From: a bacterium | GTDB taxonomy: Bacteria > Zixibacteria > MSB-5A5 > WJJR01 | Assembly: GCA_021813505.1 (NCBI GenBank) | Contig: JAKAKI010000009.1 | Span: 1 to 52,023, forward strand | Direction: 5' to 3' | DNA length: 52,023 nt | In this document: piece after piece, positions 1,081 to 30,440 of the stretch | How positions within the stretch are numbered: the stretch's first letter is position 1 | Layout of the letters: each line of letters starts with the position of its first letter | Program-made: the position numbers and the translations under genes | The notes under the pieces: generated by a model | The model's input: the letters and a program-made list of their open reading frames with translations, nothing else | Databases searched by the model: none | What the model was told of the DNA's origin: nothing

Positions 1081-1490
1081 GCCGCTCGCGCTGAACGGCC
1101 ACGGATTCGACGATAAGAGTGGGTGTTCCTCAATCCGGGGCTGGTCGCCATGCTGGCCGACTACCTCCCCCACGGCTGTGCTCTGGGCAGGCGTGAAAGC
1201 GGCGCTGAAGCAAACGTGGCGGCAGTGTGCCCCTGATTCGGTCCATATCCGGGCAACGGCTGCATGCCCGGCAGATTCAGTTAACCTTCGCCCGATGGCT
1301 CAAGCTGGCCCGGATCACGCGACTATTCTCGGTGCATTATCTGCGCCACTCGTTTGGCACGAACCTATACCAGAAGACGGGCGACCTCTACTTCGTCCAG
1401 CGAGTGCTGGGGCACAGGCAAATAACGACCACGGAGATCTATGCCAGAGTCTCGGACGACGCCCTCAGGCAGGCCGTAGGTGCGGTTTGA
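1081..1490 (+). pseudogene. Tyrosine recombinase 3' fragment (tail 1), frameshifted
   Basis: Homologous to the C-terminal half of the intact recombinase at 26053-26946. About 1090-1120 resembles the G-L-N-V-G-D-I-D region, 1123-1155 encodes VFLNPGLVAMLADYL, and after a frameshift 1227-1490 encodes the catalytic end with H-x-x-R (YLRHSFGT), LGHRQ and TTEIYARVSD. The stop at 1488-1490 is in the same relative place as in the intact gene. The N-terminal half is missing, so it cannot be active. It is the longest of several such tails in the window. Confidence 0.8.
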
Positions 1491-1520
1491 TGTCAGCCTG
1501 AGTTCTCGATGCACTCTAAC

Positions 1521-1919
1521 TTACTTCAATGCCGAGGCAACCGCCGCGGTGTCGATGTATTCCCTGAATTGGCTGACCTTCCCTTGACGAAGCGTGAACA
1601 TATGGACCCAGTTGGCCTCATAGGGGCGCTTCGTCGCTCGGGCTTCACCCCGCTCATAGCCGAACACGACCACCGTGTCACCATCGGCCACGAATTCCCG
1701 CGGCTCAAACTGCTGAATGTCCAGGCAAGTCCCTAATGCGGTAAAGAACTCCGCCACCTGTTCGCGACCGTGGCGCATACCGGCATACGGGATCACCGGC
1801 GGGCCAAAGACTTGCCAGTCAACATCGTCGGACAAGGCGCTCAGAACCGCCGCGATGTCCGCTCGTCCAAAAGATGCGTAGATGTCCTGGACGAACTGAA
1901 TAGCTCGTGATTTCTCCAT
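1521..1919 (-). CDS. SnoaL-like / NTF2-fold protein
   Basis: 132 residues beginning MEKSRAIQFVQDIYASFGR and continuing with a DVDWQVFGPP segment, a G-x-E-Q-V-A-E-F-F helix and a final GKVSQFREYIDT. This is the standard plan of stand-alone SnoaL-like domains (ketosteroid-isomerase superfamily, about 130 aa). Members include isomerases, cyclases and many proteins of unknown role that bind small hydrophobic ligands in an alpha+beta barrel; the substrate cannot be predicted. The gene lies on the minus strand between recombinase tails 1 and 2, which are both on the plus strand, so it looks like captured cargo. Confidence 0.75.
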   Translation of the reverse strand: MEKSRAIQFVQDIYASFGRADIAAVLSALSDDVDWQVFGPPVIPYAGMRHGREQVAEFFTALGTCLDIQQFEPREFVADGDTVVVFGYERGEARATKRPYEANWVHMFTLRQGKVSQFREYIDTAAVASALK

Positions 1920-1985
1920 GGCAATCGACTCCCTTCATCTCCCCTTGGAGAAAGGATATCAAGCCAGTTCTCTTTATACCAGTGG

Positions 1986-2129
1986 TTTGCGGCCACCGAT
2001 CCCCAGTACCAGAAGACCGGCGACCTGTACCTCGTACAGCGGGCGTTGGGGCACAGGCAAATCACTACCACCGAGATCAATACGCGGGTCAGCGATCAGT
2101 CGCTGAGGCAGGCGCTACAATCGCCGTAG
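1986..2129 (+). pseudogene. Tyrosine recombinase tail 2
   Basis: Reads YQKTGDLYLVQRALGHRQI, then TTTEINTRVSDQSLRQAL and a TAG at 2127-2129. The catalytic Tyr position is changed to Asn (EIN for EIY). Recognisable homology starts near 2007, with a weaker match from 1986. It lies between the SnoaL-like and 2H-phosphoesterase cargo genes. Confidence 0.8.
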
Positions 2130-2179
2130 GTAGCTCTGTCGGTCTTGCCCAGATTGAACCGCCAACTTATCCTCGCAAC

Positions 2180-2749
2180 ATGTCGATCGGCGAAACGGCG
2201 TTGGTCATTTTGGTTTCGGAGGCGGAATCGGTTGTCGGTGCATTTCGAGACCTTTACGACCCGTCCGCCTCCGAAGGTATGCCTGCTCACATCACGATAC
2301 TCTACCCGTTCCTCCCTGCCCATCGAGTGGACGCCATACTGATCCGAAAGCTCGAGGGTTTGTTTCGTGGATTTCCAGGATTCGCGTTCACGCTGCGAAG
2401 AACGGCGGAGTTTCCAGGTGTCCTGTACCTTCGGCCGGAGCCAGATCAACCATTTCGGGATCTGACCCGATTGATCCAGACCCAGTTTCCCGACTACCCG
2501 CCATACAGTGGTGCGTACTCCGACATTGTGCCCCACTTGAGCGTGATCTTCAGTAGCGATCCGCAACTCCTGGGGGCCGCTACAGAGGAATTCCATCGAT
2601 CGAATCCCCACGGCATTCTTATCAGATGTCACGCAAGATCGGTCGCCCTCATGGCCAATCATTCAGGACGCTGGCAACACGAGGCAACACTGAGCCTTCG
2701 GAGGGAGTGTGAATGCCCTGACAACGGCATGTCGACCGCGCCGCTGTAA
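2180..2749 (+). CDS. 2'-5' RNA ligase / 2H phosphoesterase family protein
   Basis: 189 residues from the ATG at 2180. Two H-x-[ST]-x motifs, HITI at residue 37 and HLSV at residue 119, are the catalytic pair of the 2H phosphoesterase (LigT-like) superfamily; the length fits. Such enzymes hydrolyse or form 2',5'- or cyclic phosphodiester bonds in RNA or small nucleotides. The ATG lacks a clear Shine-Dalgarno. The frame stays open upstream to the recombinase tail, so an earlier start cannot be excluded. It ends one base before recombinase tail 3 starts, so it sits alone between two tails. Confidence 0.75.
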   Translation: MSIGETALVILVSEAESVVGAFRDLYDPSASEGMPAHITILYPFLPAHRVDAILIRKLEGLFRGFPGFAFTLRRTAEFPGVLYLRPEPDQPFRDLTRLIQTQFPDYPPYSGAYSDIVPHLSVIFSSDPQLLGAATEEFHRSNPHGILIRCHARSVALMANHSGRWQHEATLSLRRECECPDNGMSTAPL

Positions 2750-2865
2750 GAGCAAACCGGCGACCTGTATCTTGTGCAGAGGGCACTCGGGCGCCGGCAG
2801 ATCAGGATGACCGAAATCTATGCCCCAGAAGGATCAGAGTCTCAGCAACACCGTCGGGCTCTTGA
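2750..2865 (+). pseudogene. Tyrosine recombinase tail 3 with small insertion
   Basis: Directly abuts the stop of the 2H gene. It encodes EQTGDLYLVQRALGRRQIRM and then TEIYA. About 11 bases (roughly 2827-2837) appear inserted, after which the RVS sequence resumes and runs to a TGA at 2863-2865, close to the position of the normal stop. The left edge, at the KTGDL codons, is close to the left edge of clear homology in tail 2. Confidence 0.7.
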
Positions 2866-3005
2866 CCTCTCGCAATGGACTTTTTTCGATTGGGATCGAA
2901 TTTTCGTGCATGGTGCTCCCCGCGGGTGTGATTTTCGGGGTCGTCCGACGAATCATAGGATGTAGCGGGCGCAAACTGGCGCCGCCAACCTAATGGTCGC
3001 TCCCG

Positions 3006-3515
3006 ATGTCGATACCCACACACCAAGATCGGTTTCTGCAGCTTCTCGACAAGCACAGGAAGATTCTCTACAAAGTGGCGACCGGTTACTGTCGTAATCC
3101 CGCCGATCGTCCGGACTTAGAGCAGGAGATTGTCCTTCAGCTTTGGCGGTCATTCGACCGGTACGATGACCGCTACCGATTCTCCACCTGGATGTACCGC
3201 ATCGCTCTCAACGTTGCCATCTCCTTCTATCGCAGCGAAACCCGCCGCTCTCGTCACACCGTCGCAGCTGATGACTCCATCCTGGAGATTGCGGAAGACA
3301 AGGCCGAGTCAGGGGAAATGGACAAGAGTCTCCAGCTCTTGCACCAGTTCATAGCCCGGCTTGACGAGCTTGACCGGGCGCTTATCCTCCTCTATCTGGA
3401 CGAAAACCGATACGACACGATTGCCGAGATCCTCGGGATCTCCGAAACTAACGTCGGCACCAAGATCAGCCGTATCAAAGAACGGCTCCGGTGCGACTTT
3501 TTGAACTCAGCTTGA
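3006..3515 (+). CDS. ECF-type RNA polymerase sigma factor
   Basis: 169 residues. Region 2 (about residues 10-85) includes DLEQEIVLQLWRSFDRY and FSTWMYRIALNVAISFYR, the -10 recognition helices of sigma-70 group 4 proteins. Region 4 (about 110-165) ends with YDTIAEILGISETNVGTKIS, a helix-turn-helix for -35 binding. No region 1 or 3 is present. The start lacks a good Shine-Dalgarno. Upstream, near 2925-2955, TGTGATTTTC and CGTCCGACGAAT could form a self-recognised ECF promoter, but this is only suggestive. The next gene starts 17 bases later and encodes a membrane protein, as is common for an ECF sigma factor with its membrane partner. Confidence 0.9.
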   Translation: MSIPTHQDRFLQLLDKHRKILYKVATGYCRNPADRPDLEQEIVLQLWRSFDRYDDRYRFSTWMYRIALNVAISFYRSETRRSRHTVAADDSILEIAEDKAESGEMDKSLQLLHQFIARLDELDRALILLYLDENRYDTIAEILGISETNVGTKISRIKERLRCDFLNSA

Positions 3516-3531
3516 AATAGGAGCTACCAAC

Positions 3532-4206
3532 ATGGAACTCGACGACTTGAAGCAGAAGTGGGTGGATCACGACCGGAGGCTGAATCAACACATCCGATTG
3601 AATACCCATCTATTAAACCTATCCGGAAGGAGCAAGGCGAAAACAGCGATGCGGCGATTGTCCCGATGGCTCTGGTTCGAAGTGCTGCTCGACTTCGCGG
3701 TTCTCCTCTGGCTTGGCTCGTTTATTGCGGGGCATGTGGATCAGGCTCGCTTCTTCTTGCCGGCGGCAGCTATCCATCTGTCCGTCATATTGCTGCTGGT
3801 AGCCGGCATCCATCAAATCATCTCAATCGCCCAGATCGACTACGCGGCGCCGATCGTGAAAATTCAAAGGCGACTTGAAGAGCTCCGAGTCTGGCGGCTT
3901 CGTGTCACTATGCTTGCCCTTCTTCTCGCACCCCTGCTCTGGACGCCACTTCTGGTAGTGACCCTCAAAAGTCTGTTCAATGTCAACGTGTACGCAGTCG
4001 TCACGGGTGCCTGGCTTGCTGCGAATCTGGCCTTCGGGCTTGCCGTCATATTTCTGGCGGTCTGGGTTTCGAGGCGTTACGCGGACCGGATCAAGCGATT
4101 CCCCTTCGTGCAAAAGCTTATGAGCGACATCACAGGTCAAAGCCTGAAGTCTGCTTCTCGTTTTCTGAACTCACTGGCCGATTTCGAGGAGGAGTGCGTT
4201 CAATAG
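3532..4206 (+). CDS. Four-TM membrane protein, probable anti-sigma partner
   Basis: 224 residues with a good Shine-Dalgarno (AGGAG, about 3520). A soluble N-terminal part of about 45 residues begins MELDDLKQKWVDHDRRL, followed by four hydrophobic segments near residues 48-70, 74-98, 128-147 and 155-180 and a charged C-terminus. No zinc anti-sigma HxxxCxxC motif is present. An N-terminal acidic helix starting ELDDLK.W followed by TM helices is a recurring design for genes just downstream of ECF sigma factors, so I infer that it binds or tethers the sigma factor. It was probably co-captured with the sigma gene as one cassette. Confidence 0.6.
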   Translation: MELDDLKQKWVDHDRRLNQHIRLNTHLLNLSGRSKAKTAMRRLSRWLWFEVLLDFAVLLWLGSFIAGHVDQARFFLPAAAIHLSVILLLVAGIHQIISIAQIDYAAPIVKIQRRLEELRVWRLRVTMLALLLAPLLWTPLLVVTLKSLFNVNVYAVVTGAWLAANLAFGLAVIFLAVWVSRRYADRIKRFPFVQKLMSDITGQSLKSASRFLNSLADFEEECVQ

Positions 4207-5837
4207 AGCCCGGCCGACACTTGATGCAACGGCTAATCGGCAACCGGCAGATCACTACAATGGAGATCTACGCGCGGTTGAGCGATGAAGCGTTCATGAG
4301 TGCGGTGTGTCAGGCCATCTACACCCGCAAGTCTACCGACACCGGACTGGATTCCGAATTCTCCTCCATCGACAACCAGAGAGAGGCGTGTGAGGCCTTC
4401 ATCCGCTCCCAACGGGAGGAAGGTTGGGTTCTGAACGAGGAGCGGTTTGATGACGGGGGGTTCAGTGGCGGCACCATTGAACGCCCCGCCCTCAGGCGGC
4501 TCTTGCTGTTGGTGAAGGCTGGGGAGATTGACTGTGTGGTGGTCTACAAGATTGACCGGCTGTCACGCTCCCTGTTGGATTTCGTCCGGCTGTTGGAGTT
4601 GTTCGAATCCAAGAAGATTGCCTTTGTGGCGGTCACCCAGCAGATCAATACCACGACCTCGGCCGGGCGGCTGATGCTGAATGTCCTGATCAGCTTCGCC
4701 CAATTCGAAAGGGAGCTGTGCAGTGAGCGCACCCGGGAGAAGATTCACGCCGCAAGAAAGAAAGGCAGGTACACGGGCGGGACTCCGCCCTTGGGCTACA
4801 GCATCAATCCCATTACGCACCAATTGGAGGTCGCTCCCGAAGAGGCCACCATGATCCGGGAGTTATTCGAGTTGTACCTCGAACACCGGTCCTTGTTGGC
4901 GGTGGTGAAGGTTGTGAACGCCCGTGGCTGGGTGCGGAAATCCTGGCTGACCGCAAGGCAAGAACTGCGGGGCGGGAAGGCACTCAACAAAGTCTATCTC
5001 CAGCGCTTGCTGACGAATCCGCTGTACTTGGGCAAGGCCTTCCTGAAAGGAGACCTCTATCCCGGGTTGCATGAAGCGATTGTCGACGAGGAGACCTTCA
5101 ATCAGGTGGGGGCACTGTTGGTCGCCAACCGCAATTACGCTGACCCCTCACGGCGCTGCCACGGCAACGCCCTGTTGCGGGGATTGGTGCGTTGTGGCCG
5201 TTGTGGGGCGGTCATGGCGCACACCTGGACCCGCAAAGGGGGCAGGAGATACTCCTACCTGGGCTGCAACACCGCGCAGAAGCAGGGCCGTTCAGCCTGT
5301 CCCACACCGACGCTCCCGGCAGGAGACGTTGAAGCAGCAGTCATCAACGAGATCAAGCGGCTGGCGCAGGATCCGGCGTTGATCGATCAAGTATTCGCCG
5401 AAGCCCTGGAGCAAGCCAAGCAGAACCGGGAGCTTCTGGAGATGGACCGAACCCGCCTGTTGCGGCAGCGGGAGCAGCGCGAAGAAGCCATCAAGCGGCT
5501 GGTGTCTTCGCTGGAGAGTCCTGAGGGCCAGTCCCCCGCGGTGATCGGACAGAGAATCGGCGAACGCCAAGCCGAGATCGCGCAACTCAACCTCCGTTTG
5601 CAGGACGTGGAGCAAGAACTCAACACCCTCACGTCCCAGACCCTCGACCGCGACCACCTCGCGCAAACCCTCGCTCAGTTCACCGACCTGTGGGACGTCC
5701 TCTACCCCATCGAGCAGGTCAAGCTGGTACGGTCGGTGATTGAGACGGTTGTGTACCATGATGAGGCGGAGAGGTTTGAGATACGGTTCCGGTTTACCGG
5801 CGATACAAGGGAGGTCACTCCCGCGCGAGCCGAATGA
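4194..5837 (+). CDS. Large serine recombinase (resolvase-recombinase-zinc ribbon-coiled coil), N-terminus fused to integrase tail 4
   Basis: 547 codons. The resolvase domain begins at AIYTRKSTDTGL; the catalytic Ser is the TCT codon at 4332. The motif IDRLSRSLLDFVRLLELFE and the EFSSIDNQREACEAF helix are intact. A Recombinase domain (PPLGYSINP onwards), a zinc ribbon (VRCGRCGAVMAH and a later C..C pair) and a long C-terminal coiled coil (about residues 390-490) follow. Length and order fit phage or ICE serine integrases. The first 37 or so codons encode a tyrosine-recombinase tail (LIGNRQITTMEIYARLSDEA), so the true start may be ATG 4296 or GTG 4305. A close homologue lies at 43196-44806. Unlike that copy, this one lacks an upstream DUF2924 gene. 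Confidence 0.85.
   Translation: MRSIEPGRHLMQRLIGNRQITTMEIYARLSDEAFMSAVCQAIYTRKSTDTGLDSEFSSIDNQREACEAFIRSQREEGWVLNEERFDDGGFSGGTIERPALRRLLLLVKAGEIDCVVVYKIDRLSRSLLDFVRLLELFESKKIAFVAVTQQINTTTSAGRLMLNVLISFAQFERELCSERTREKIHAARKKGRYTGGTPPLGYSINPITHQLEVAPEEATMIRELFELYLEHRSLLAVVKVVNARGWVRKSWLTARQELRGGKALNKVYLQRLLTNPLYLGKAFLKGDLYPGLHEAIVDEETFNQVGALLVANRNYADPSRRCHGNALLRGLVRCGRCGAVMAHTWTRKGGRRYSYLGCNTAQKQGRSACPTPTLPAGDVEAAVINEIKRLAQDPALIDQVFAEALEQAKQNRELLEMDRTRLLRQREQREEAIKRLVSSLESPEGQSPAVIGQRIGERQAEIAQLNLRLQDVEQELNTLTSQTLDRDHLAQTLAQFTDLWDVLYPIEQVKLVRSVIETVVYHDEAERFEIRFRFTGDTREVTPARAE
4206..4313 (+). pseudogene. Tyrosine recombinase tail 4, in frame with the serine recombinase
   Basis: Encodes RHLMQRLIGNRQITTMEIYA then RLSDEAFMSAVCQ, clearly homologous to the intact recombinase end. 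The expected stop is missing and the frame runs straight into the serine recombinase catalytic domain. The junction lies near 4305-4316. Confidence 0.75.
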
Positions 5838-15694: not shown

Positions 15695-15704
15695 GGGAAT
15701 ACCC

Positions 15705-16499: not shown

Positions 16500-16635
16500 C
16501 TCATTCTCTTCCGGGACTGGAGCCTGCAGGTCTCCTGATTCAATGCTCTCTATCTGATTCTACTACTATATGCCCAGCGATGCCAGCACGATTTCTCAAT
16601 CTCAATGTACGCCAACGGACCGAGCAATTGACGCC

Positions 16636-17214
16636 CTATTCGTCCTGCTTCAAACTCGCGCGACCCTTATCTGAAAGTTCCCAGATGCCCCTTGGCGAGT
16701 TCGCCTTAAGAAGGCCGTCCCGCACCAGCGCATAGCATGCCCATTGTACCGTGTTTCGCCAACGCGGCATGTCCGAATCGCTCGCCAGAGGGTCGTAATC
16801 GACGTCCTTGAGGACCTTTTTCATTCTCTTGCCTATCCGGTCAATCACTTCCGAGGTGTCTCCCGACCCGCCCATCTCCGCCAGAATCTCAAGTAAGGGC
16901 GTGCGGAACTGCGCCTCAGGCGTCCGCATTCCTTTGCGCAGGCGACCAAGGTTCCTTCGCTCGGCTCTTGTAGCTTCATCCTCATGGCTTTCGGCTTCGG
17001 CGGCCAGATCATCCCACTCCTTCCGAAGCGAGCTCAACTTATCGCGGAATGCGGTCAGGGTTCCAGCACGCGTCAATGCCTCGCGGGCACGATCATAATC
17101 CCGCCCTTCGAATGACTTTGATCCGATGCGATTGACGAAGTCGATTTCGGCTTCGACTTCCTCGGAGAGCATCTCGAAGGCCGCCGAGACGTTACTCGGA
17201 TTGTTCTCAATCAT
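16636..17214 (-). CDS. Mrr N-terminal-type winged-helix protein with coiled-coil N-terminus
   Basis: 192 residues from ATG 17214, chosen because CGGAGGTGG lies just upstream; an in-frame start at 17265 has no such site. Residues about 1-100 are a charged coiled coil (EEVEAEIDF, AESHEDEATRAERRNL). Residues about 105-190 match the Mrr N-terminal winged helix: FRTPLLEILAEMGGSGDTSE, then WRNTVQWACYALVRDGLL, ending in GIWELSDKGR. The Mrr nuclease domain is absent, so it may bind DNA or act as a regulator rather than cut. It is the first gene of a five-gene minus-strand operon and is divergent from the Eco57I-type methylase, with 222 bases between the starts. Confidence 0.75.
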   Translation of the reverse strand: MIENNPSNVSAAFEMLSEEVEAEIDFVNRIGSKSFEGRDYDRAREALTRAGTLTAFRDKLSSLRKEWDDLAAEAESHEDEATRAERRNLGRLRKGMRTPEAQFRTPLLEILAEMGGSGDTSEVIDRIGKRMKKVLKDVDYDPLASDSDMPRWRNTVQWACYALVRDGLLKANSPRGIWELSDKGRASLKQDE

Positions 17215-17436
17215 CAGATCCACCTCCGACGATTTCTGCATCCTTCCGACGTCTGCCCTCGCCAAGATAGCAACTCAGCCCTCCGGACACAATGGGGTGA
17301 CCGGACGCTCCGCTGACCCTCGATGAGGGTATGATTGACAATAGGCATTCGAATTCCGACCTTTTGCCCGGTTGCGTAAGCGACCACTGGCAGCATTTGC
17401 CCAAATTTGCGAGTTGCAGGTGTCTAAAGCACTGGC

Positions 17437-20400: not shown

Positions 20401-21567
20401 CAATGGGTGTTCCCTGAAGTGCACCCACAGTACACCGTTGTACTGACCTGTTTGGAGAAGGAGGGGAGCGTTCCGGCGTCGTCGGAAGTACGCGTCCATG
20501 GTCCGTACCGCAGCAAGTCCGCCTTTGACACTGGGATCAAGGCTAATCCGGTTCGCTTTGCGGTGAAGGATGTTCTGTCGTGGACCGAATCGGCGTCGCT
20601 GCCGCTCCTGCCGTCAGAGGAATCTGCCGAGGTATTCCTGAAGATTCGCAAGGCACCACGTCTGGACGCCGACGTCGGCAGCTGGCGCTGCCGGCCGCAT
20701 GCTGAGTTGCATGCCACGAACGACAAGCATCTTATGACTGTGACCAATGACCCACCCAAGGGATACTGGCCGGTCTACAAAGGAGAATCGTTCGACATCT
20801 GGAACCCCGACACGGGGCGGTACTATGCCTGGGTTGATCCGGAGAAGATCTGCGCCCACTTGCAGCAGAAACGAGAACGTAGCGGCAAGCGAGGGGTGTG
20901 GCTTGATCCCGAGATAATCAAAGAACGTTTCGACAACGAACCGGAGCAGGTTCGGACAAAAAGCCGGTCGGCATTCGCTGAGTTTTCTCCGCAATGGATA
21001 AAGGACCCGAAGACTCTCCCGTGCCGTCACCCACGCATTGCCTTCCGGGATGTGACACGAAGCACCGATCAACACACAGTACGCGCAGCGCTCCTACCGC
21101 CAGAAGTCGTGATTACCAACAAAGGTCCTTACCTCCTTTGGCCGAAGGGTGAATACCAGGACACGGCGTATCTCTTGGGAGTTATTTCTTCCATTCCTCT
21201 TGACTGGTTCTCGCGCTGTTTCGTCGAGGTAAGTATGAATTTTCATATCTTCAACACACTTCCAATACCACGACCGGACCAGGGTTCTACCCTCCGAGAG
21301 CGTGTCATCGCCATAGCTGGTCGCCTCGCCTGTCCCGATAAGCGGTTTGCAGCATGGGCAAAGGTGGTCGGCGTCAAGTGCGGGCCGATTCCAGAGGACG
21401 AGAAGAGCGACATGATAGCCGAACTGGACGCCGTTGTGGCACACTTGTATGGTCTGACGGAGAAACAGTTGGTGCACATCTTCGAGACATTCCATGAGGG
21501 TTGGGACTACGAGGAGCGATTGCGGGCGGTGTTGGGGCATTTTCGGGAGTGGAAGAAGCGGTTTTGA
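17437..21567 (+). CDS. Eco57I/PglX-type DNA N6-adenine methyltransferase (restriction-modification class)
   Basis: 1376 residues. The N-terminal 550 residues are helical with a restriction-endonuclease-like region, followed by GARKATGSYYTKEFAVEHLL, the usual lead-in to this methylase family. Motif I is ADIAMGSGHF (595-604; usually DPACGSG), the G-VDLNPLAVELARLSVW segment binds SAM, and motif IV is NPPW at 856-859. The C-terminal 450 residues would form the target-recognition region (FHIFNTLPIPRP near the end). Size and order fit Type IIG/IIL or BREX PglX-like enzymes. No Shine-Dalgarno is visible. It lies upstream of an ORF6N gene and a PLD-SNF2 helicase, which could supply restriction. No BREX or full DISARM gene set is present. 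Confidence 0.85.
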   Translation: MTSFLPHRELRPAELARAEGLAPRGLILGAGAQALEVLVYDASRRPTQDSVRKLWKERWAGRPTPVVLVVLYADKAGLCGHTTRNHEAPPALLDLEIVHVERLCDTALDLPDHHAVDRFLREQIPEAESPIFGIRNQGLLATHVIQRGKEEFDPQRWEQAGTQSRKLRDLSERKLLEGLGYAIQPLMGPASLLLARGSRCALAIFLDQNESAEVASTRYAGQPPVSYGLNVAQQQGLPWLIVARGSELRLYPTATGVGVGRRGLTDTYLQINQTLVPEDRLPLLWLAFSAEALADEDGLKALLEKSSRYAQDIGRRLRDRIYTLVIPELAKAIVKARKLKKPKSNDLDLTYQMAMLVLFRLLFIAYAEDHDLLPYKANEAYRRRSLTERAKELKRLVETGGTFDTGTSQWDEIVLLWDAVRKGNTEWGVPPYDGGLFEEDALTHAAGSALAQIKMSNREFAVILRNLLLDPETPEGLGPVDFRSLGVREFGTIYEGLLENELSVAESPLTTDKKGDYKPADDSKKAIIAKGEIYLHTHSGARKATGSYYTKEFAVEHLLDHSLEKALDEHLEKVARVAKPDHRKAAVQLFEFYVADIAMGSGHFLVNAIDRIERRLLRFLADQPLPGVTEELEKLRTAAKETLGSACDDRWLENNKLLRRLIARRCIYGVDLNPLAVELARLSVWIHTFVPGLPLSFLDHNLVCGNSLVGIATFSEAIEEITSRGANMDLFDDPARRMLSAAAEAINQLRATSDANIADVEKAKAAHDRIEKALQGTSAFFDILAAARLDKDVIKQVASGFAGMVADLQHLDNLFGVALHRKAQQVMKALPPFHFPIAFPEIFLRDTPGFDVIIGNPPWQEATIEEYAFWARHFPGLRGMKQSDQETRKAQYRKDRPDLVRLLEKETSEAELLRRVLISGPYPGMGTGDPDLYKAFCWRFWHLLRSPVGRLGVVLPRSAWFAKGSEEFRIEAFKSGLVEDLTYLLNNRQWVFPEVHPQYTVVLTCLEKEGSVPASSEVRVHGPYRSKSAFDTGIKANPVRFAVKDVLSWTESASLPLLPSEESAEVFLKIRKAPRLDADVGSWRCRPHAELHATNDKHLMTVTNDPPKGYWPVYKGESFDIWNPDTGRYYAWVDPEKICAHLQQKRERSGKRGVWLDPEIIKERFDNEPEQVRTKSRSAFAEFSPQWIKDPKTLPCRHPRIAFRDVTRSTDQHTVRAALLPPEVVITNKGPYLLWPKGEYQDTAYLLGVISSIPLDWFSRCFVEVSMNFHIFNTLPIPRPDQGSTLRERVIAIAGRLACPDKRFAAWAKVVGVKCGPIPEDEKSDMIAELDAVVAHLYGLTEKQLVHIFETFHEGWDYEERLRAVLGHFREWKKRF

Positions 21568-21602
21568 TGGGGCGGTACGGCAAATGATTGCTCGTGTCTT
21601 GT

Positions 21603-21680
21603 TTGAGGTCGCAAGTTGCGACCTTAAAGAAGAGGTGCCAGATTGGTACCTCAACTTGAGATCACAATTTGTGATTTCAA
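21603..21680 (+). promoter_or_regulatory. Three tandem imperfect palindromes upstream of the ORF6N gene
   Basis: Palindrome 1 spans 21603-21627 (AGGTCGCAA-G-TTGCGACCT core), palindrome 2 spans 21632-21652 (GAGGTGCCA-GAT-TGGTACCTC), and palindrome 3 spans 21656-21680 (GATCACAA-T-TTGTGATTTC). All share the outline GAGxTxxCA. Palindrome 1 is almost the same as a perfect palindrome inside the downstream gene (21943-21969). They may be operators bound by the ORF6N protein, or copies of a hairpin-like element. Confidence 0.6.
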
Positions 21681-21712
21681 AATCCAGCAACAGGTAGAAT
21701 CAAGGGATAGAC

Positions 21713-22273
21713 ATGCCTACAGGGAAATCGTCGTCCGAAAAGAGCACGGCGAAATCACTGGTGCCAACTGAACGCATAGATCGGGTCATTCTGCGGATTC
21801 GCGGTCAAAACGTGATGCTGGACAGCGAGTTGGCATCTCTTTATGGAGTGACCACGAAACGGCTGAATGAACAGGTTCGCCGCAACCGTGAGCGTTTTCC
21901 CGTGGACTTCATGTTTCAACTCACCGCGGCTGAAGCAGAGGTTTTGAGGTCGCAAATTGCGACCTCAAAGCCGGGACGAGGCGGTCGTAGGCATATTCCT
22001 TATGCGTTCACCGAACACGGCGCGGTCATGCTGGCCAGTGTGCTCAAATCACCCCGCGCCGTTGAGGCGAGTATCTTCGTGGCGCGGGCGTTCGTCCGAT
22101 TGAGGGAGTGGGCCGCAACCAACAAGGAACTGGCAGCCAAGCTTGCCGATCTGGAGCGTCGCGTCGGTGGGCATGATGAATCTATCCGATCTTTGGTGGC
22201 TGCAATTCGGCAGCTCATGGCGCCTCCCCCCGCGAAGAAGACCAAGATCGGCTTCCATCAGGAGAAAGGCTGA
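21713..22273 (+). CDS. ORF6N domain DNA-binding protein
   Basis: 186 residues. Residues 19-110 are the ORF6N (KilA-N/Bro-like) domain: RIRGQNVMLDSELASLYGVT, then KRLNEQVRRN..RFP.DFMFQLT, LRSQIATSK, and HIPYAFTEHGAVMLASVL. The C-terminus is a coiled coil (ELAAKLADLERRVGGHDESI) and a basic tail. Such proteins are phage- and plasmid-borne and probably bind DNA. It lies between the methylase (145 bases upstream) and the helicase (13 bases downstream) of a putative restriction system, so it could regulate that system. The gene contains a perfect palindrome at the LRSQIATSK codons that also appears upstream. Confidence 0.85.
   Translation: MPTGKSSSEKSTAKSLVPTERIDRVILRIRGQNVMLDSELASLYGVTTKRLNEQVRRNRERFPVDFMFQLTAAEAEVLRSQIATSKPGRGGRRHIPYAFTEHGAVMLASVLKSPRAVEASIFVARAFVRLREWAATNKELAAKLADLERRVGGHDESIRSLVAAIRQLMAPPPAKKTKIGFHQEKG
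21943..21969 (+). repeat. Perfect 13+1+13 palindrome within ORF6N coding sequence
   Basis: The arm TTTGAGGTCGCAA is repeated exactly inverted around A21956. It encodes LRSQIATSK, a segment common in ORF6N proteins, and matches the palindromes 270-340 bases upstream. Confidence 0.75.
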
Positions 22274-22286
22274 GAGTATCGGTTTC

Positions 22287-25200
22287 ATGACGAAACCCGA
22301 ATTCATCGACAATCGCGACGGGAATACACTCGGCGAGGCGTTGCGCCAACATCTCGACTGGCTCGGCCAGACCTACAAGGCGCCGGTTGAGCTGTCAGTC
22401 GCCACCGGGTACTTTAATCCAGGTGGGTTTGCCCTCGTCGCCGAGCATCTGGATCGAGTTTCACGAGTGCGGCTCCTCCTCGGAGCGGAGCCGATTGTCC
22501 CACCCAAAGTGCCGACGCGAAAGATCGGCGAGGATCCCCGAGGTGAGGCCTTTCGCCAGAAGCTGCTAAAGACGGCACTCTCAGAAGAAGAAACGGCGAT
22601 CCGCGATGATCGCAATCTTCTCGAATTTGCTTCGGCATCAGACCGATCGATCAAACGCCTTCTGGAGTTCTTGGCATCAGGGAAGGTTGAAGTTCGCCGC
22701 TACGAGCGCGGGTTCCTTCATGGTAAAGCGTTCATCTTCGCCGGTGACGAAGGTGTTCTCGCAGGGTCTTCTAACTTCACTGCCGCGGGTCTGACCGCGA
22801 ATCGCGAGTTGAACCTCGGGCATTATCAGCCTCACCTCGTCAAGCAAGTCAAAGATTGGTTCGACCGTCTCTGGGACGAAGCGGTTCCTTACGACCTCGC
22901 CGCCATTTACCAGGAACGGTACGCCGAGTATCCACCGTACCTCATCTATCTGCGCGTGCTGTGGGAACTCTACAAGAACGAATTGGAACATGAGCGTGAA
23001 CCGAGCGGCCGGATTCCGTTGACGACGTTTCAGACGGACGGGGTGAGCCGCGCGGCCCGGATTCTGGATGAGTACAATGGCGTCATCATTGCCGACGGCG
23101 TAGGACTTGGGAAAAGTTTCATCGCTGGCGAGTTGATGCGGCTTATCCAAGAGCAGAACTGGCGTGTGTTGCTGATCTCCCCTGCGGCGCTCCGTGATGG
23201 CACGTGGGAGCGATTCCAGACGCGTCATCAACTGCGCTTTGAGAACATCTCCTTTGAACAACTCGTGCGCGGGACCCATGAGTACGGCCACCAAGACAAT
23301 GCGGTTGTCGATTACGAGATGGTCGTGATCGACGAGGCACAAGCATTCCGAAACCCCAGTGCAGAGCGTGCAGCAGCTTTGCGAGCGCTCCTGCGAGGGA
23401 AGAGACCCAAGAAGCTCGTCCTGATGAGCGCCACGCCGGTGAACAACTCCCTGTGGGATCTCTATTATCTCCTGACGTACTTCATCAAGCATGACGCGGT
23501 CTTCGCGGATCGCGGTATCCTGTCGCTTAAGGAGCGATTCAAGTTCGCTCAGCAGATCGACCCATTTGACTTGAAGCCTGATACCCTTTACGATGTTCTC
23601 GATCCGGTGACGGTGAGGCGCACGCGTCGCTTCGTACAACGGTGGTATCCAAACGAACGCATCCCGGGACCGGATGGCACTCTGATTCCCGTTCGGTTTC
23701 CCACGCCACACGTCGCCAAGATCGACTATGATCTCGATGCCGTTCTTCCGGAGGGGTTCTTCGACGACTTCGAAGATGCTTTGGCACCGCAGCAGGGTCA
23801 TCCCAAACTGACGATGGCGCGTTATTGGCCGTCGGGGTATCTCCTCGAAGGAGAGGTGGAATCGCGCGAACTGGCGCTTGTCGGGTTGCTGCGTTCGGGT
23901 CTGTTGAAGCGATTTGAGTCATCCGTCTATGCCTTCGCGCGCACATGCGCAAGGTTGGCAGACTCACATGACCGCTTCCTCCAAGCTTTGGACGCCGGGT
24001 TTGTGCCTTCGCCTGAGGCGATGGATGAATGGTCGGAAAGCGATTCGGATGATGCATTCGAGGAATTACTACGGTCTTCCGGATCGCTACCGATCTCAGA
24101 GTATGATGTCGAAGCGCTCAGGAACGACGTTCTCTCGGATCGAGCGTTGTTACGGCGATATGCGGAAATCGGCGCCGCCATCGCTCCAAAGCAAGACCCC
24201 AAACTGGTGCACCTGGTGGAAGAACTTGTGGAGATATTGCATCAAGCCGCCGGGGAGAATGGATCCGACACTGAGCAGCGTGATCGTCGCAAAGTTCTGA
24301 TCTTCTCATACTTCGCTGACACGGTGAAGTGGATCTATGATTATCTGTTGGAGCGTGTCGAAGTAGATCGCCGACTTTCGGCATACCGTGGACGTATCGC
24401 CGCCATTTCGGGGGATCAGTCCTTACAGGGCGGATCACGGGAGGCAACGGTATATGGATTCGCTCCTCACTCGACCGAAGCGCCTCCGAGACATGCCGAG
24501 GACTTGTACGACATCCTGGTGACCACCGACGTACTCGCCGAGGGGATGAATCTCCAGCAGTGCCGACACATCATCAACTTCGACCTGCCCTGGAATCCAA
24601 TGCGGTTGGTTCAAAGGCATGGGCGAATCGACCGCATCGGGAGTCCCCACGAGGATGTCTATGTCCGCTGCTTTTTCCCGGACAAGCGGCTCGACACTCT
24701 TCTGCGTTTGGAGCATCGCGTCCGCGGCAAACTGGCTCAAGCGGCTGCGTCAATAGGTCTCGAGACAGAAGTAATTCCCGGTGGTTCCACCGCTGAGGTT
24801 GTATTCGCGGAGACTCGAGAACAGATCAATGCGTTGCGCAGGGGCGATGCGCGGCTCCTCGAGCGAGGGGGAGAACCCGAGGGTGCCCATTCAGGTGAAG
24901 AATACCGACAGGAACTTCGGAAGGGTCTCGAAGAGTGGGGAGATCAAATCACAAATCTGCCTTGGGGAGCAGGCTCGGGTATCAAGAGTGGCCTTGCCAC
25001 CGGATGGTTCTTCTGCGCTCGTATCGGTGACAAACCAATCCTGCGATTCGTGCCCACGACAAATGGTGAATCGCAGATTTCGGATACGTTGACTTGCCTG
25101 CGGTACATCTCATGCGAACATGACACTCCACGCGTGTTGTCCGATTTCACCTTGGCTGGCGCGTATGGGGCTTGGCAGAGGGCCAGGGAATCAATCTTCG

Positions 25201-25544
25201 CAGAATGGACCAAGGCTACTGACCCCAAGAATCTACAGCCTAAGGTGCGGCCGTTATTCCACGCAGCTGCCAATCACCTACGGCAGTTTCCTCCCGCCGG
25301 ACTCGATCAGAAAACGCTCGATGCGGCCGTCGATTCGCTGCTCGCTCCCTGGGGCATGCGCTACGAACGTGAACTCAGAACGGTCATGGATGATGACGAG
25401 ATCACCGGCCCAGAGCGGTCAGAAAAGATCGTTGAGAAGATTCACGAACTCGGTCTGTCACCACACGAGCCCCCGAAGCCACTCCCGCTCATCGACGCAG
25501 AAGAGGTCCGGCTGGTGTGCTGGATGGCGGTGGGCCCAACCTGA
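22287..25544 (+). CDS. PLD-nuclease / SNF2-family helicase fusion (restriction-type)
   Basis: 1085 residues from ATG 22287; an upstream in-frame start at 22143 would lie inside the ORF6N gene. Residues about 20-190 are a phospholipase D-like nuclease with HxK (H145-G-K147) and GSSNFT. The SF2 helicase follows: Walker A DGVGLGKS with Lys276, DEAQ at 349-352, SATPVNNSLWDL, and motif VI QRHGRIDRIGSP from 776. A C-terminal region of 250 residues is unassigned. A single PLD domain usually dimerises to form one active site. With the upstream Eco57I-type methylase this resembles a DNA-modification-based defence system in which this protein translocates on and cuts unmodified DNA. That role is inferred. 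Confidence 0.85.
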   Translation: MTKPEFIDNRDGNTLGEALRQHLDWLGQTYKAPVELSVATGYFNPGGFALVAEHLDRVSRVRLLLGAEPIVPPKVPTRKIGEDPRGEAFRQKLLKTALSEEETAIRDDRNLLEFASASDRSIKRLLEFLASGKVEVRRYERGFLHGKAFIFAGDEGVLAGSSNFTAAGLTANRELNLGHYQPHLVKQVKDWFDRLWDEAVPYDLAAIYQERYAEYPPYLIYLRVLWELYKNELEHEREPSGRIPLTTFQTDGVSRAARILDEYNGVIIADGVGLGKSFIAGELMRLIQEQNWRVLLISPAALRDGTWERFQTRHQLRFENISFEQLVRGTHEYGHQDNAVVDYEMVVIDEAQAFRNPSAERAAALRALLRGKRPKKLVLMSATPVNNSLWDLYYLLTYFIKHDAVFADRGILSLKERFKFAQQIDPFDLKPDTLYDVLDPVTVRRTRRFVQRWYPNERIPGPDGTLIPVRFPTPHVAKIDYDLDAVLPEGFFDDFEDALAPQQGHPKLTMARYWPSGYLLEGEVESRELALVGLLRSGLLKRFESSVYAFARTCARLADSHDRFLQALDAGFVPSPEAMDEWSESDSDDAFEELLRSSGSLPISEYDVEALRNDVLSDRALLRRYAEIGAAIAPKQDPKLVHLVEELVEILHQAAGENGSDTEQRDRRKVLIFSYFADTVKWIYDYLLERVEVDRRLSAYRGRIAAISGDQSLQGGSREATVYGFAPHSTEAPPRHAEDLYDILVTTDVLAEGMNLQQCRHIINFDLPWNPMRLVQRHGRIDRIGSPHEDVYVRCFFPDKRLDTLLRLEHRVRGKLAQAAASIGLETEVIPGGSTAEVVFAETREQINALRRGDARLLERGGEPEGAHSGEEYRQELRKGLEEWGDQITNLPWGAGSGIKSGLATGWFFCARIGDKPILRFVPTTNGESQISDTLTCLRYISCEHDTPRVLSDFTLAGAYGAWQRARESIFAEWTKATDPKNLQPKVRPLFHAAANHLRQFPPAGLDQKTLDAAVDSLLAPWGMRYERELRTVMDDDEITGPERSEKIVEKIHELGLSPHEPPKPLPLIDAEEVRLVCWMAVGPT

Positions 25545-25817: not shown

Positions 25818-26052
25818 ATAATAGTAGTACGCTAGATCCCAAATCCGGCGCGGAATGAACGCGATATTTCCTCAACGGCATTGATAGGCTTGGACTTGGG
25901 AATCTCGGTGGCCGAGCGACTATTCCCGGATCACCCGGGCACCAAGAGGTACTTAAGGCGTTGTACGAACTGAGGTGGGATTTCCGGAGTTCAGGAGAAT
26001 TCTCGCAATCTCTTTGCCCCAACCTCTCGTTCACCACACTGACGGAGGCCTT

Positions 26053-26946
26053 ATGCGATTGTCTCAAGCGACGACCCACTTCACCCGCCAACTGGCGGCC
26101 AACGGATGCTCGGTCCACACTCTGAAGGCCTACACCCGGGATCTGGCGGCGTTCACCCGCTGGTTAGGCGAGAATGTTCAACTTTCTGCGATCAAACCTG
26201 ACGATCTGGCACGCTTCTTGATTAGTGACGAGGCGCTAAGCACCCCCGACGGCCAGCCCCGCAAGCCCATCACCATCAACCGCACCAAGTCGGCGCTGCG
26301 GTCGTTCTTCCAGTTCTGCGTGGAATCGGGTTGGATTGAGCAGAATCCGGCCCGGCTGATCCGATCGGCACCGGCAGCGGCCAAGGAGCCGTCGACCTTG
26401 ACTGACGACGAGATTCGGCGGCTACGGGCAATTCTGGCCGAGAACAAAGGCCAATTCGCCTCGCGGGACCGGCTGATCTTCGAGATTCTGCTCGGTACTG
26501 GCATCCGGCTGGGGTCGCTGGTGGGGTTGAACGTGGGTGACATCGATCTCCAGACCGGCACCCTGCACATCCGGGCCAAGGGCGGCGCACAGGAGCGGGT
26601 GTTCCTCAATCCCGAGTTGTCCGCCATGTTGGTCGGCTACCTCGGCGAATGCGCGACTGAAGCCAAACGTGGCGCCAACGTGCCGCTGATTCGGTCCAAG
26701 TCGGGGCTACGGCTGGGCGGGCGGCAGATTCAGTTGAACTTCGCCCGGTGGCTCAGGCTGGCCGAGATTACTCGGTCGTTCTCGGTCCACTCGTGTCGCC
26801 ACACATTCGCGACCCGGCTGTATCAGAAAACCGGGGACCTGCACCTGGTGCAGAGGGCGTTGGGGCATCGGCAGATCACGACCACAGAGATCTACGCGCG
26901 GGTCTCGGATGCGGTGTTGAAGCATGCGGTCAGCTGCGCCAACTAA
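26053..26946 (+). CDS. Tyrosine recombinase / XerC-XerD-like integrase, intact
   Basis: 297 residues from ATG 26053, with GGAGG at 26044-26048; an upstream in-frame start at 25975 is less likely. The N-terminal SAM-like domain (HFTRQLAANGCSVHTLKAYT) is followed by the catalytic domain with Arg152 (TGIRLGS), Lys176 (RAKGG), His246 and Arg249 (HSCRHTF), His272 (LGHRQ) and nucleophile Tyr281 (TTEIYARVSD). All catalytic residues are present, so the enzyme should be active. This is the only complete member of a family whose 3' ends are scattered through the window as tails. Cargo genes follow directly downstream, each group ending near another tail. It may therefore be the enzyme that built or could still move the array. 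Confidence 0.9.
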   Translation: MRLSQATTHFTRQLAANGCSVHTLKAYTRDLAAFTRWLGENVQLSAIKPDDLARFLISDEALSTPDGQPRKPITINRTKSALRSFFQFCVESGWIEQNPARLIRSAPAAAKEPSTLTDDEIRRLRAILAENKGQFASRDRLIFEILLGTGIRLGSLVGLNVGDIDLQTGTLHIRAKGGAQERVFLNPELSAMLVGYLGECATEAKRGANVPLIRSKSGLRLGGRQIQLNFARWLRLAEITRSFSVHSCRHTFATRLYQKTGDLHLVQRALGHRQITTTEIYARVSDAVLKHAVSCAN

Positions 26947-27164
26947 CTCCGACTGGTCCGCACATAGCGTCACGCACTGCTACGATTCCTGCAGTACTGA
27001 GTGCGGGTCGCCGCATCTGAGCGCGCGACCCTGGTCTCACCCCCGGGTTCATGATAACGCATCTGGATGCATCCAATAGAGATTCGGCCTCTTGACCACC
27101 TTTCTTGCGGTCATGTACCTTCAGTGTCGGATAGACCGATTGAAAACTGGACGGGAGGTGTCCA

Positions 27165-27638
27165 ATGACTAATAAGCCGGACGAACTCTGGAAATACCTT
27201 GAACTGGCCCGTCAACAAATCGGGCGGCAGTACGAAGCATATGGTCGGTTGCAGTCCAAGGCTAGCACCCTTCTGGGGTTCGGATTCGTTCTAATGGGGT
27301 TTGTCATCAATGCGCTGACGCGGCTCGACTACATGGGCTTCATGTGGATCCCAATCGGATTGATATTCTGTGCACTCGTCCTATTGGCGACCGCGTATCG
27401 AACCTCAGCGGTTGCAACAGCGCCGAACATCAGCCTCATAAGATGGCACTTGGAGGAAGGCACCGCGCTCGAGGAGGCATCTGCTGATCTCATTAGTGGA
27501 ATGGAAGATGCCTACACCGAAATCAAGACCGACCTCCTGCGAACTGGAACGAAGGTGAATTGGGCGATTCGTCTGATACTGTTGGGAACGGCAGCAACCG
27601 CCGTCATGGTGGTTACGGCCTGCTCTTGCGTTCCGTGA
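27165..27638 (+). CDS. Small three-TM membrane protein, SLATT-like architecture
   Basis: 157 residues with a strong Shine-Dalgarno GGGAGGTG (27153-27160). Layout: N-terminal amphipathic helix (ELWKYLELARQQIGRQYEAY), two close TM helices (about 38-57 and 66-85), a soluble loop of about 50 residues, and a final TM helix (about 133-152). A helix followed by two TM segments resembles the pore-forming SLATT/S-2TM effector domains of nucleotide-signal conflict systems, but no motif proves it. It is the first cargo gene after the intact integrase, 218 bases downstream. Confidence 0.6.
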   Translation: MTNKPDELWKYLELARQQIGRQYEAYGRLQSKASTLLGFGFVLMGFVINALTRLDYMGFMWIPIGLIFCALVLLATAYRTSAVATAPNISLIRWHLEEGTALEEASADLISGMEDAYTEIKTDLLRTGTKVNWAIRLILLGTAATAVMVVTACSCVP

Positions 27639-27783
27639 GTCTATCAACCGCGGGAGGTTTCTCCCTGTTGGCCCGGACTGGTGCCTTTCGGTCAGCCGGA
27701 GGATTTGGCGGGGCCACGGGCGGAGGCGGGGCCTTTGGGGGCACGGGAGGTGTTGGAGGGATCTTCGGTTCTTCCGGCGACAT
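27613..27783 (-). CDS. Proline-rich 56-residue microprotein
   Basis: ATG at 27783 preceded by AAAGGAGATAAT, an excellent Shine-Dalgarno at correct spacing. 20 of 56 residues are Pro, mostly in PPTPPVPPKAPPPPVAPPNP, then a basic tail with RANREKPP and ERKSRP. A polyproline II rod with a charged end is expected, with no TM segment or signal peptide. The gene is antisense to its neighbours and its 3' end overlaps the end of the three-TM gene by 26 bases. No family recognised; the case for it being real is the ribosome binding site. Confidence 0.5.
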   Translation of the reverse strand: MSPEEPKIPPTPPVPPKAPPPPVAPPNPPADRKAPVRANREKPPAVDRLTERKSRP

Positions 27784-27944
27784 ATTATCTCCTTTCAAGT
27801 CACTTGGACGTACGCAATAATAAGGCCAATCGGAACGACATGGCAAGGATGAATCACTACCTGAAATTAACGCAACTGGCAAAGGATCTGAATCTTCGAC
27901 CGACAGGTGCTGGCACATAGACCTGAGAAAGGCCGGAACATCAA

Positions 27945-29309
27945 GTGTCCATGCGCACCGCTCATGATTCTCCTCAGAATCGCCTTCATGCAACTCTTGG
28001 TTTCTTCATGCAGGGCTTGCCAGTGATCTTCGTGCGAACAGAAACCGTCTTTGCCATCGATCCCTATTTGAGCCGCTATCTTAAGGCTGCGATGGGGGGA
28101 GGGATGCCTGATTTCACAGAAGACGCACTTCTAAAGGGTTTCGAGCAGTTTATTACTTCCAGCCACGAACTTCGACATTTCCACGACGCACTCTTGTCAC
28201 GTCCCCTGTTCAGGCTGTTTATGTTGCAGAACTCCCGGTTTTGGCGTGTCCTGCAATTGCCCGGGAACATCTCCGGACTTACGGCAGCTGATCTACCGCT
28301 CCAAAACGGCAAGGCGATTCAGGCAGACGTCACCCCATTTGGTCTATCGCTAATCGGCGAGGTGCAAGAGGCAGACCGCCTCTACAACATGGAGCGGCGG
28401 AGATTGTACAAAACCCACACTTGCAAGAACGATCTCACCGTCTCGATGGTCGACCTTCTCGAGGCGGACGCAATCGCAGCGGAACTCCTCTACATTCTGG
28501 TCTCCCACAACGCCGCGTCTGCTGAACAGTACTACAGGCAGGTTGTGTGCCAGCTCCCCATTGAGTACAACAAGCTGGTCAATGTGTTTGTCGATCATGC
28601 AGGAAGTTTCGATCAGGCTATAGTCAGTCTGCACTTGGCTGTTGCGCATTCGCTCTATGGGTCGGACGATCCTGCATCGTCCTTCTGCAAAGTGATCGAA
28701 GATTACTTGGCGAGACCTGATGGCTTTGTTGATCGCTACGGCCCTCAGGCGATTGGGGAGCTGTTTGGTGGGGAACCGGCGCTAGAGGAATGGGTGATGA
28801 GTCACAGAGTCGTGGGCATGGACGCGCTTGCGGAGCGACCCGTTCAAGCGCCTAACGAGTTGCTTGAAGAGATGCTTGGCTTCCATAGGAACATTTATGC
28901 TGCCCGTAAGTTACTGATAGAAACGTACATTAAGAACTTTGAGATGAATGCATTTGACTATTATCAACGTACAGATGAACTGCCGTTGCCTCCGATCGTG
29001 TTTTGGCCCGGTGAAATCTCAGAGGCCGGCCAGGGAATCAATGTTAGGGAGGATATGCTTCAGCAGTTTGGCCTGGACATGTACATGATAAGAGGAGGGG
29101 ACTGGGAGCGTGGTGATTTGCGCGTCGTTGCTGGAATTGGGCCATACGGGCTGAGGAAGCCGTTCCTGGACTATAGATTGGTTGATCTCCACATGCTAGC
29201 GTATTACTGGTACAGGAGGCTATTCACAGAGACTGACTCGGAAGTGTACTCCCCTCTTGTAGATGAGATGTACGAAGCGCTGTTGAGGGAATCCTTCGGT
29301 CTGTCTTGA
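27945..29309 (+). CDS. Unknown protein with HELRH metalloprotease-like motif
   Basis: 454 residues from GTG 27945, or 452 from ATG 27951 (GAAAGG about 20 bases upstream). SSHELRHFHDALLS contains HExxH (H74, E75, H78 from the GTG), followed about 95 residues later by LLEADAIAAELLYILVSHN, where E173 could be the third zinc ligand as in gluzincin peptidases. No signal peptide or TM helix is evident. The rest (VDRYGPQ, PPIVFWPGEISEAGQG) matches nothing I know. It lies between a three-TM protein and an integrase tail, a typical place for a conflict-system enzyme. Protease activity is a hypothesis from the motif alone. Confidence 0.7.
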   Translation: MSMRTAHDSPQNRLHATLGFFMQGLPVIFVRTETVFAIDPYLSRYLKAAMGGGMPDFTEDALLKGFEQFITSSHELRHFHDALLSRPLFRLFMLQNSRFWRVLQLPGNISGLTAADLPLQNGKAIQADVTPFGLSLIGEVQEADRLYNMERRRLYKTHTCKNDLTVSMVDLLEADAIAAELLYILVSHNAASAEQYYRQVVCQLPIEYNKLVNVFVDHAGSFDQAIVSLHLAVAHSLYGSDDPASSFCKVIEDYLARPDGFVDRYGPQAIGELFGGEPALEEWVMSHRVVGMDALAERPVQAPNELLEEMLGFHRNIYAARKLLIETYIKNFEMNAFDYYQRTDELPLPPIVFWPGEISEAGQGINVREDMLQQFGLDMYMIRGGDWERGDLRVVAGIGPYGLRKPFLDYRLVDLHMLAYYWYRRLFTETDSEVYSPLVDEMYEALLRESFGLS

Positions 29310-29400
29310 GCCAATTGCCACAGCCTTCTTGGATCAAGCGAATGCGCCCGATTATCGAGCCCTCGGGTTGCTGTCGCTTCCTATCAAGTTTTGCCGTCGG

Positions 29401-29481
29401 CTGCGCGCCCGGCAGATTACGACGGAGATTCATGTGCGGGTGAGCGATGAATCACTCCGGCGAGCAGTTACCACTGCCTGA
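29401..29481 (+). pseudogene. Tyrosine recombinase tail 5
   Basis: Reads RQITTEIHVRVSDESLRRAV and a TGA at 29479-29481. One Thr codon of TTT is missing and the catalytic Tyr is His. It separates the HELRH gene from the next small membrane-protein gene. Confidence 0.75.
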
Positions 29482-29591
29482 TACACCGGCGTGAAGCCAA
29501 CGTGCCGCACGCTATTGCCATTCTGCAAAGCGTGCCTTAGCTTGGAGAAGATACGCGGGGGATACACATTATGAAGTGTAGATGAGGAGCG

Positions 29592-30026
29592 ATGAACGTG
29601 GGAGAAACCGATCCATCACTTCGGCAGAATGAAGAGATTGTTAGGTCCATGATCCAGTCCGAAAACGAATTGATCAATCACCGGATCTCATGGCTGACGA
29701 CTGTGCAGGGCCTGCTGTTCGCTTCGCTCGGTTTCGCATGGGGCAAGCCAGATAGTTCCGGGCTTGCAACTCTGCTGTGCACACTGGGCATCGCTGTTTC
29801 AGTGTTGTGTTTCCTTCTGCTGATCAGTGCGACCTGGGCGCAGAACCGCCTCGTCAGCTGGTGGGAGTCTAACAAGCCCGCCGAGTACATCGGACCAGGG
29901 GTGATGGGACTGCCTCCATGGGAAAAAAGCCTTCGTTGGTATCCTATACTCCGGGTCTTCGCGGGGTGGAATCTATTCCCCGTGGTGTTCGCCGCGGCAT
30001 GGATTGCTGTCTTGTGTATGACATAA
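29592..30026 (+). CDS. Small three-TM membrane protein
   Basis: 144 residues with GAGGAG upstream. It has the same plan as the protein at 27165: an N-terminal helix rich in Glu, Gln and Asn, TM helices at about 34-52 and 57-82, a loop containing GPGVMGLPPWEK, and a terminal TM helix (FPVVFAAAWIAVLCM). No sequence family recognised. It lies alone between recombinase tails 5 and 6. Confidence 0.65.
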   Translation: MNVGETDPSLRQNEEIVRSMIQSENELINHRISWLTTVQGLLFASLGFAWGKPDSSGLATLLCTLGIAVSVLCFLLLISATWAQNRLVSWWESNKPAEYIGPGVMGLPPWEKSLRWYPILRVFAGWNLFPVVFAAAWIAVLCMT

Positions 30027-30150
30027 ACCCGCAGAGCGACTTTGGATTGAAATGTCGCGGCCTCCTCGCGGCCGCATCGCCGCTTAGAACCGCTCAAGGG
30101 GACTCGCCGTGCCCGGGGCTTCGGCCACGACACCGACTTGTAAGCGTACA

Positions 30151-30232
30151 CGGAACCACCGCCGACCTACCGCGCGGGAATCTACGCCCGAGTTTCCGAC
30201 GGCACGCGCAGGCAGTCCTTCACCGTAGCCTG
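30151..30232 (+). pseudogene. Tyrosine recombinase tail 6, degenerate
   Basis: IYARVSDGTRRQSF then TVA and a TGA at 30230-30232, preceded by a degraded TTT-like stretch. It lies in the 414-base gap between two membrane-protein genes; nothing else is evident in that gap. Confidence 0.6.
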
Positions 30233-30440
30233 ACACAAGGACCAGGCGCACCGGCTTGCAAGGCTTGTCATGTGTTGAGTGTGGACTCGGAAAGATCTCG
30301 CGACTCGAGTGTCCGGTCTGTTTTGCAGGTCCAGGAATGTGGCACCTGCGACAAAGTAAGGGTCGTCGCAGGAGGACGCAGGGAAGGGTCGCCTCGATTG
30401 CCAGTTGCTTACGAGGATGCCATATGGGTAGTTTTGACAC

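Follow-up and report, generated by a model that had tools for sequence, protein, structure and literature searches.

The 3' end of a Xer-like integrase gene as a putative insertion point for gene cassettes in Zixibacteria

A Xer-like integrase and six copies of its 3' end

The window, the whole 52,023-nucleotide stretch analysed here, is an entire contig (C84) of a 3.9-Mb Zixibacteria MAG designated G000; every genome compared with it (cited as G001, G002, G004, G005, G006, G008 and G057) is likewise a MAG. The closest named relative, a groundwater MAG assigned to Candidatus Zixiibacteriota, belongs to the same genus and has an integrase with 87% identity; these groundwater bacteria have been little studied. 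The window contains int, an intact gene for a Xer-like tyrosine recombinase (Table 1), and directly upstream of it lies a defence region (15380-25544) encoding a type IIG restriction-methylase (PADLOC E 1.6e-297), an HKD+Snf2 helicase and an Mrr_N protein.

The int product has the PF00589 domain and the C-terminal HxxR, His and Tyr of the tyrosine recombinase superfamily, and alignment with its best relative among solved structures, E. coli XerD (1a0p, E 8.7e-27), pairs H246, R249, H272 and Y281. Although most like XerC/XerD, it scores below the cut-offs of the XerC and XerD equivalog models (189.5 and 176.1 bits; cut-offs 335 and 330) and of the IntI models (TIGR02249, 82.7 bits against 265; PRK15417, 59 against 435). 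G000 carries about eight full-length copies, 81-88% identical to that of the window and two of them with a broken frame, plus many 3' fragments; two relatives at 29-33% identity elsewhere in the genome are its housekeeping XerC/D copies. Judged by its sequence, int is not a housekeeping XerC/XerD, because it falls below both cut-offs and is present in about eight full-length copies rather than one of each. Homology between int loci begins 50-90 bases 5' of the start codon (about 26000-26052 in the window), and the leaders come in two alternative types, CGTTCACCACACTGACGGAGG and CGCGTAATC..GGGAGGT. Searches for a phage or plasmid as a named source returned nothing above 60% identity, with one weak match among viral contigs, and tRNA and RNA family searches of the window gave no match.

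With the int gene as sole query, blastn/nhmmer recovered 3'-end fragments on the same strand as int, which we call tails. A profile built from int 3' ends only found six in the window, each in the orientation of int (matches at 1371, 2010, 2751, 4218, 29410 and 30176; E = 4.5e-25 to 0.0042). A tail model, R1, detected arrays on a single strand in G002, G004 and G006, and in G001 and G008 it detected a tail adjacent to int. In all, arrays occur in four genomes of the family, from several genera, and another family of the order also has an int with an adjacent tail. Because the training sequences of R1 came from G000 and G001, the independent evidence consists of the int-3'-end profile in G000 and the R1 search in the other genera. 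G005 has tails and no detected intact int.

Tails have recurrent limits. Across 26 tail-only copies the match to the int consensus starts around offset -17 (codon 264-266), ends at the stop codon and has unrelated sequence on both sides; 5' boundaries fall mostly at codons 264-275, with a smaller group of long tails starting at codons 247-257. Fragments with only the 3' end number about 40 against 3 with only the 5' end (none of these in G000), a ratio that is approximate because the two counts come from searches differing in method. The best kept stretch is that from LGHRQ to RVSD, as the first-pass annotation had noted, and the Tyr codon is indeed lost in tails 2 and 5; it is missing from about half of all tails. 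That annotation had also described tails 3 and 7 as broken in frame: tail 3 is frame-shifted, and we detect six tails rather than seven.

The same annotation took the tails to be conserved as DNA rather than as protein. This was not borne out: the 26 tail-only copies keep codon positions 1 and 2 and vary at position 3, like coding sequence. Differences between each tail and its closest int number 94, 62 and 147 at the three codon positions, and the majority of tails keep a frame open to a stop near the int stop position. With int left out, tail decay along the array follows a weak gradient that is a trend only (p 0.11). Tail 4 is in frame with the N-terminus of a large serine recombinase (4194-4320), a possible fusion or deletion scar.

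Table 1. Coordinates of int, its tails and the intervening candidate cassettes in the window
Feature	Coordinates	Strand	Evidence
int, intact Xer-like tyrosine recombinase, 297 aa	26053..26946	+	Pfam PF00589 E 2.6e-33
Putative exchangeable C-terminal module of int: codons 246-297, HxxRH, LGH, Tyr281, stop	26788..26946	+	divergence step at codon 245/246
int stretch matching short tails, about codons 267-294, putative attachment-site region	26852..26934	+	26 tail-only copies
Tail 1, 5'-truncated degenerate int	1117..1487	+	profile E 9.8e-25
Candidate cassette between tails 1 and 2: SnoaL-like gene 1521-1919 (-)	1490..2006	-	
Tail 2, Tyr to Asn	2007..2128	+	profile E 4.5e-25
Candidate cassette between tails 2 and 3: 2'-5' RNA ligase-like gene 2180-2749	2129..2749	+	PF13563 E 6e-19
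Tail 3, frame broken (frame-shifted)	2743..2864	+	profile E 8e-16
Candidate cassette between tails 3 and 4: ECF-type sigma factor 3006-3515 and partner gene 3532-4206	2865..4217	+	
Tail 4, Tyr kept; in frame into serine recombinase 4194-5837	4218..4320	+	profile E 3e-13
Candidate cassette directly 3' of int: genes 27165-27638 and 27945-29309	26947..29394	+	
Tail 5, 3-nt deletion, Tyr to His	29395..29481	+	profile E 2e-10
Candidate cassette between tails 5 and 6: ORF 29592-30026, weak 8xMP match	29482..30155	+	
Tail 6, strongly decayed	30156..30233	+	profile E 0.0042

Gene segments between tails

The segments that separate tails are mostly 0.3-3 kb long and hold one or a few unrelated genes; some reach 3-6 kb with several genes. 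Their genes lie on either strand, some with a promoter and terminator of their own, and across genomes include SnoaL-like, 2'-5' RNA ligase, sigma factor plus partner, hydrolase, zinc-chelating, RRM and cold-shock genes, the last two named from the sequences themselves. Directly 3' of the window's int, the first gene has a weak PycTM match (Pycsar effector, E 5e-5), and the second has no homologue among 132 genomes of the phylum.

Several of these genes recur beside tails in different genera. The stop codon of the SnoaL gene directly abuts a tail in both G000 and G002, which belong to two genera, while the G004 homologue stands without a tail. The start of a kinase gene lies directly after int in G000 and after a tail in G004, another genus (78%). 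A unit with a gene of about 70 aa on the minus strand and promoter-like and terminator-like ends is found again in G006 and G001 with 80% DNA identity, and in G000 the homology stops at its two bounding tails. Among the recurring genes, those for kinase, RRM and cold-shock proteins are members of multi-copy families.

The sequence 3' of int is displaced at some loci. A 55-nt flank lies directly 3' of three ints; at a fourth it is found 1.4 kb downstream, after a tail, and at two more it lies 0.8 and 1.7 kb downstream without a tail, retaining just the last few int codons.

At one G004 locus (L073, contig C10, 12579-13505) an RRM-type gene is present in each of two consecutive cassettes, and RRM homologues also sit away from tails in related genomes. 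Resident genes seem in this case to have additional copies in cassettes.

C-terminal divergence and a possible capture mechanism

The first-pass annotation predicted slow synonymous change in the 3' end of int. Measured as the fraction of identical-amino-acid codon pairs that use different codons among nine ints, synonymous divergence is instead 0.26 in codons 1-240, 0.47 in codons 241-262, 0.38 in codons 263-275 and 0.56 in codons 276-297 (permutation p < 5e-5 for the rise). It doubles sharply at codon 245/246, where the HxxRH motif (H246, R249) opens a module that also includes H272 and Y281 by alignment to XerD.

Comparison between genomes reveals a further step at this position. Codons 1-245 differ by 0.16 at the nucleotide level and 0.25 at synonymous sites within G000, compared to 0.40 and 0.59 against G008, a member of another family of the order. 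For codons 246-290 the values are 0.24 and 0.50 within G000 and 0.27 and 0.50 against G008, and the ratio of within- to between-genome divergence accordingly goes from 0.40 (0.35-0.46) to 0.87 (0.69-1.04). An int homologue without tails in G057, outside the tail-bearing group, gives 0.65 and 0.68, as expected of vertical divergence, with no such shift at codon 246. The pattern is repeated against tails and fragments of G002, G004 and G006; in a set of 42 ints and tails, divergence amounts to 0.32 inside a genome against 0.36 between genomes, and 15 of them have their closest sequence in another genome. (We set aside a distance-correlation test for mosaicism because N-terminal distances were star-like.) Because within-genome divergence equals between-family divergence only from codon 246 onward, the extra divergence of the 3' end is better explained by exchange of C-terminal modules between genera.

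Our preferred reading, to which we assign a probability of roughly 0.6, is that the 3' end of int serves as the insertion point of an integron-like cassette array and that each incoming module replaces the last ~50 int codons. Small non-autonomous cassettes, usually of one or two genes and each bounded by one copy of the integrase C-terminal module, would be captured at the 3' end of a resident Xer-like int. On insertion, the module supplied by the cassette would be fused to the int body (codons 1 to about 245), and the old end would be pushed downstream, where it becomes a tail. The integrase would gain a new HxxRH...Tyr...stop segment and yet stay full length, because the cassette supplies the C-terminal module.

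Under this model int itself would probably catalyse capture, cassettes may circulate as circles, the C-terminal swap would accompany insertion, and tails would be the recombination sites. A crossover somewhere in codons 246-276 is plausible, as both the recurrent tail boundaries and the module exchange fall within this interval. A single crossover point fails to explain all cases, because the 5' boundaries form two classes and two displaced flanks are short. No empty sites, excised circles or before/after pairs were seen among the MAGs. An attachment site in the 3' end of int, as the first-pass annotation suggested, fits the architecture: 5' boundaries recur, tails end at the int stop, and tails lie downstream of ints on the same strand, bounding small gene segments in several genera. 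Its argument from selection on DNA does not survive the synonymous divergence.

An unlikely alternative is that int-bearing prophage-like islands were inserted successively into the 3' ends of resident ints, with tails as attL-type remnants and small segments as deletion leftovers. The contigs clearly do contain stacked prophage-like islands as well: ints are spaced 24-65 kb apart on one strand, a terminase-small/ParB-methylase module follows within 0.3-6 kb after int, several units have DUF2924 and a large serine recombinase 12-17 kb later, and tail 4 abuts a serine recombinase start. However, single-gene segments without int are bounded by tails in four genera and the same small genes recur beside tails, and islands alone need no small cassettes. 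Such islands may be the origin of the cassette system.

Somewhat less probable still, in our judgement, is that the tails are only decaying pseudogene ends and that int 3' ends were swapped by ordinary homologous recombination or gene conversion. Many tails are degenerate, the multiple copies of int make conversion plausible, and recent int relics would be expected to keep a codon periodicity. But random truncation predicts as many 5' as 3' fragments, which the counts contradict, and the 5' boundaries of tails cluster; conversion within a genome would homogenise the C-ends, yet those of a single genome vary as much as those of different families.

We consider it very improbable that a conventional double-stranded attachment core overlaps the Tyr codon and is kept by selection on DNA, as first proposed, since the best-scoring arrangement in ints and tails, CAGATYAC-N7-GAGATCTAC (a 9-7-9 imperfect inverted repeat at codons 274-281), scores no better than its synonymous recodings do (p 0.45; for the consensus, 0.89), variation at synonymous sites is free in this stretch and spacer-like sequences differ between neighbouring sites. 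This repeat, of recombinase type, is expected from the protein sequence alone. DNA-only selection does not explain the conservation of the int 3' end, because synonymous divergence is faster there, the tails are still periodic by codon and none of the inverted repeats scores above the null.

Comparison with known systems

The preferred reading, cassette capture at the int 3' end, resembles integrons in that a tyrosine recombinase lies beside a series of repeated sites, all in one orientation and separated by small genes. Under the integron definitions of PMC8618304, a cassette array with one site per cassette beside an integrase is present in several genomes, with tails as the putative recombination sites, and the tails of G005 can be likened to the CALIN elements of the same source. 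In contrast to integrons, the enzyme is Xer-like and far under the IntI cut-off, the sites duplicate the end of the integrase coding sequence itself, cassettes face both ways and int points into the array. As for attC-like folding, RNAalifold on 21 sites found no pair, and DNA folds of six sites on both strands gave z from -1.35 to 1.10. The likeness to integrons is one of layout; two defining features, an IntI-family enzyme and folded attC sites, are absent.

Archaeal 'suicidal' integrases (SSV1, pTN3, pT26-2), described as confined to archaea, have their attachment site inside the integrase gene, and integration splits that gene (PMC8371274). The putative site in int would share this location, but here int is full length beside cassettes at several loci and the host is bacterial. 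Integrative elements that restore a gene 3' end also use a site there and replace the gene end with their own; here most tails keep frame and stop and the C-ends are exchanged. The target would be the integrase itself, and the part replaced would hold the catalytic Tyr. XerC/XerD recombinases are of the same enzyme family, and the pdif modules of Acinetobacter are likewise small gene modules between recombination sites, but the sites here are not dif-like.

More tentatively, at somewhat worse than even odds, we propose a bacterial gene-capture system unrelated by its parts to integrons, in which the catalytic 3' end of int is the attachment site, each capture replaces the nucleophile-bearing C-terminus so that capture changes the enzyme, and genera draw on a common pool of C-terminal modules. 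We found no description of such a system in the open-access literature, a search that does not prove its absence. For bacteria, cassette capture is generally equated with integrons. A second system of this kind, made up of a Xer-like enzyme and duplicates of the end of that enzyme's gene, would illustrate how cassette capture can arise. Enzyme specificity could be studied in it as a natural experiment, the part with HxxR, His and Tyr being swapped between genera while the body stays, and a bacterial site inside a still-intact integrase gene would contrast with the archaeal suicidal integrases.

Other parts of the contig carry further genes of note. A large serine recombinase with a DUF2924 partner occurs at 4194-5837 and 43196-44806 of the window and on contigs C5 and C93 of G000, 12-17 kb downstream of int copies and together with minus-strand terminase-small-like genes and a ParB-methylase. 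Together they make up a prophage-like block that occurs repeatedly and combines two kinds of integrase. The final 125 bases of the window (51899-52023) are identical, in opposite sense, to the start of the C93 reverse complement, and because of this terminal identity the two contigs probably end in one common repeat. The window also encodes a subtilase-family protein of 1594 aa (9155-13939) that is possibly secreted, and a TPR-TIR protein of 848 aa (47021-49567) that is a possible immune sensor.
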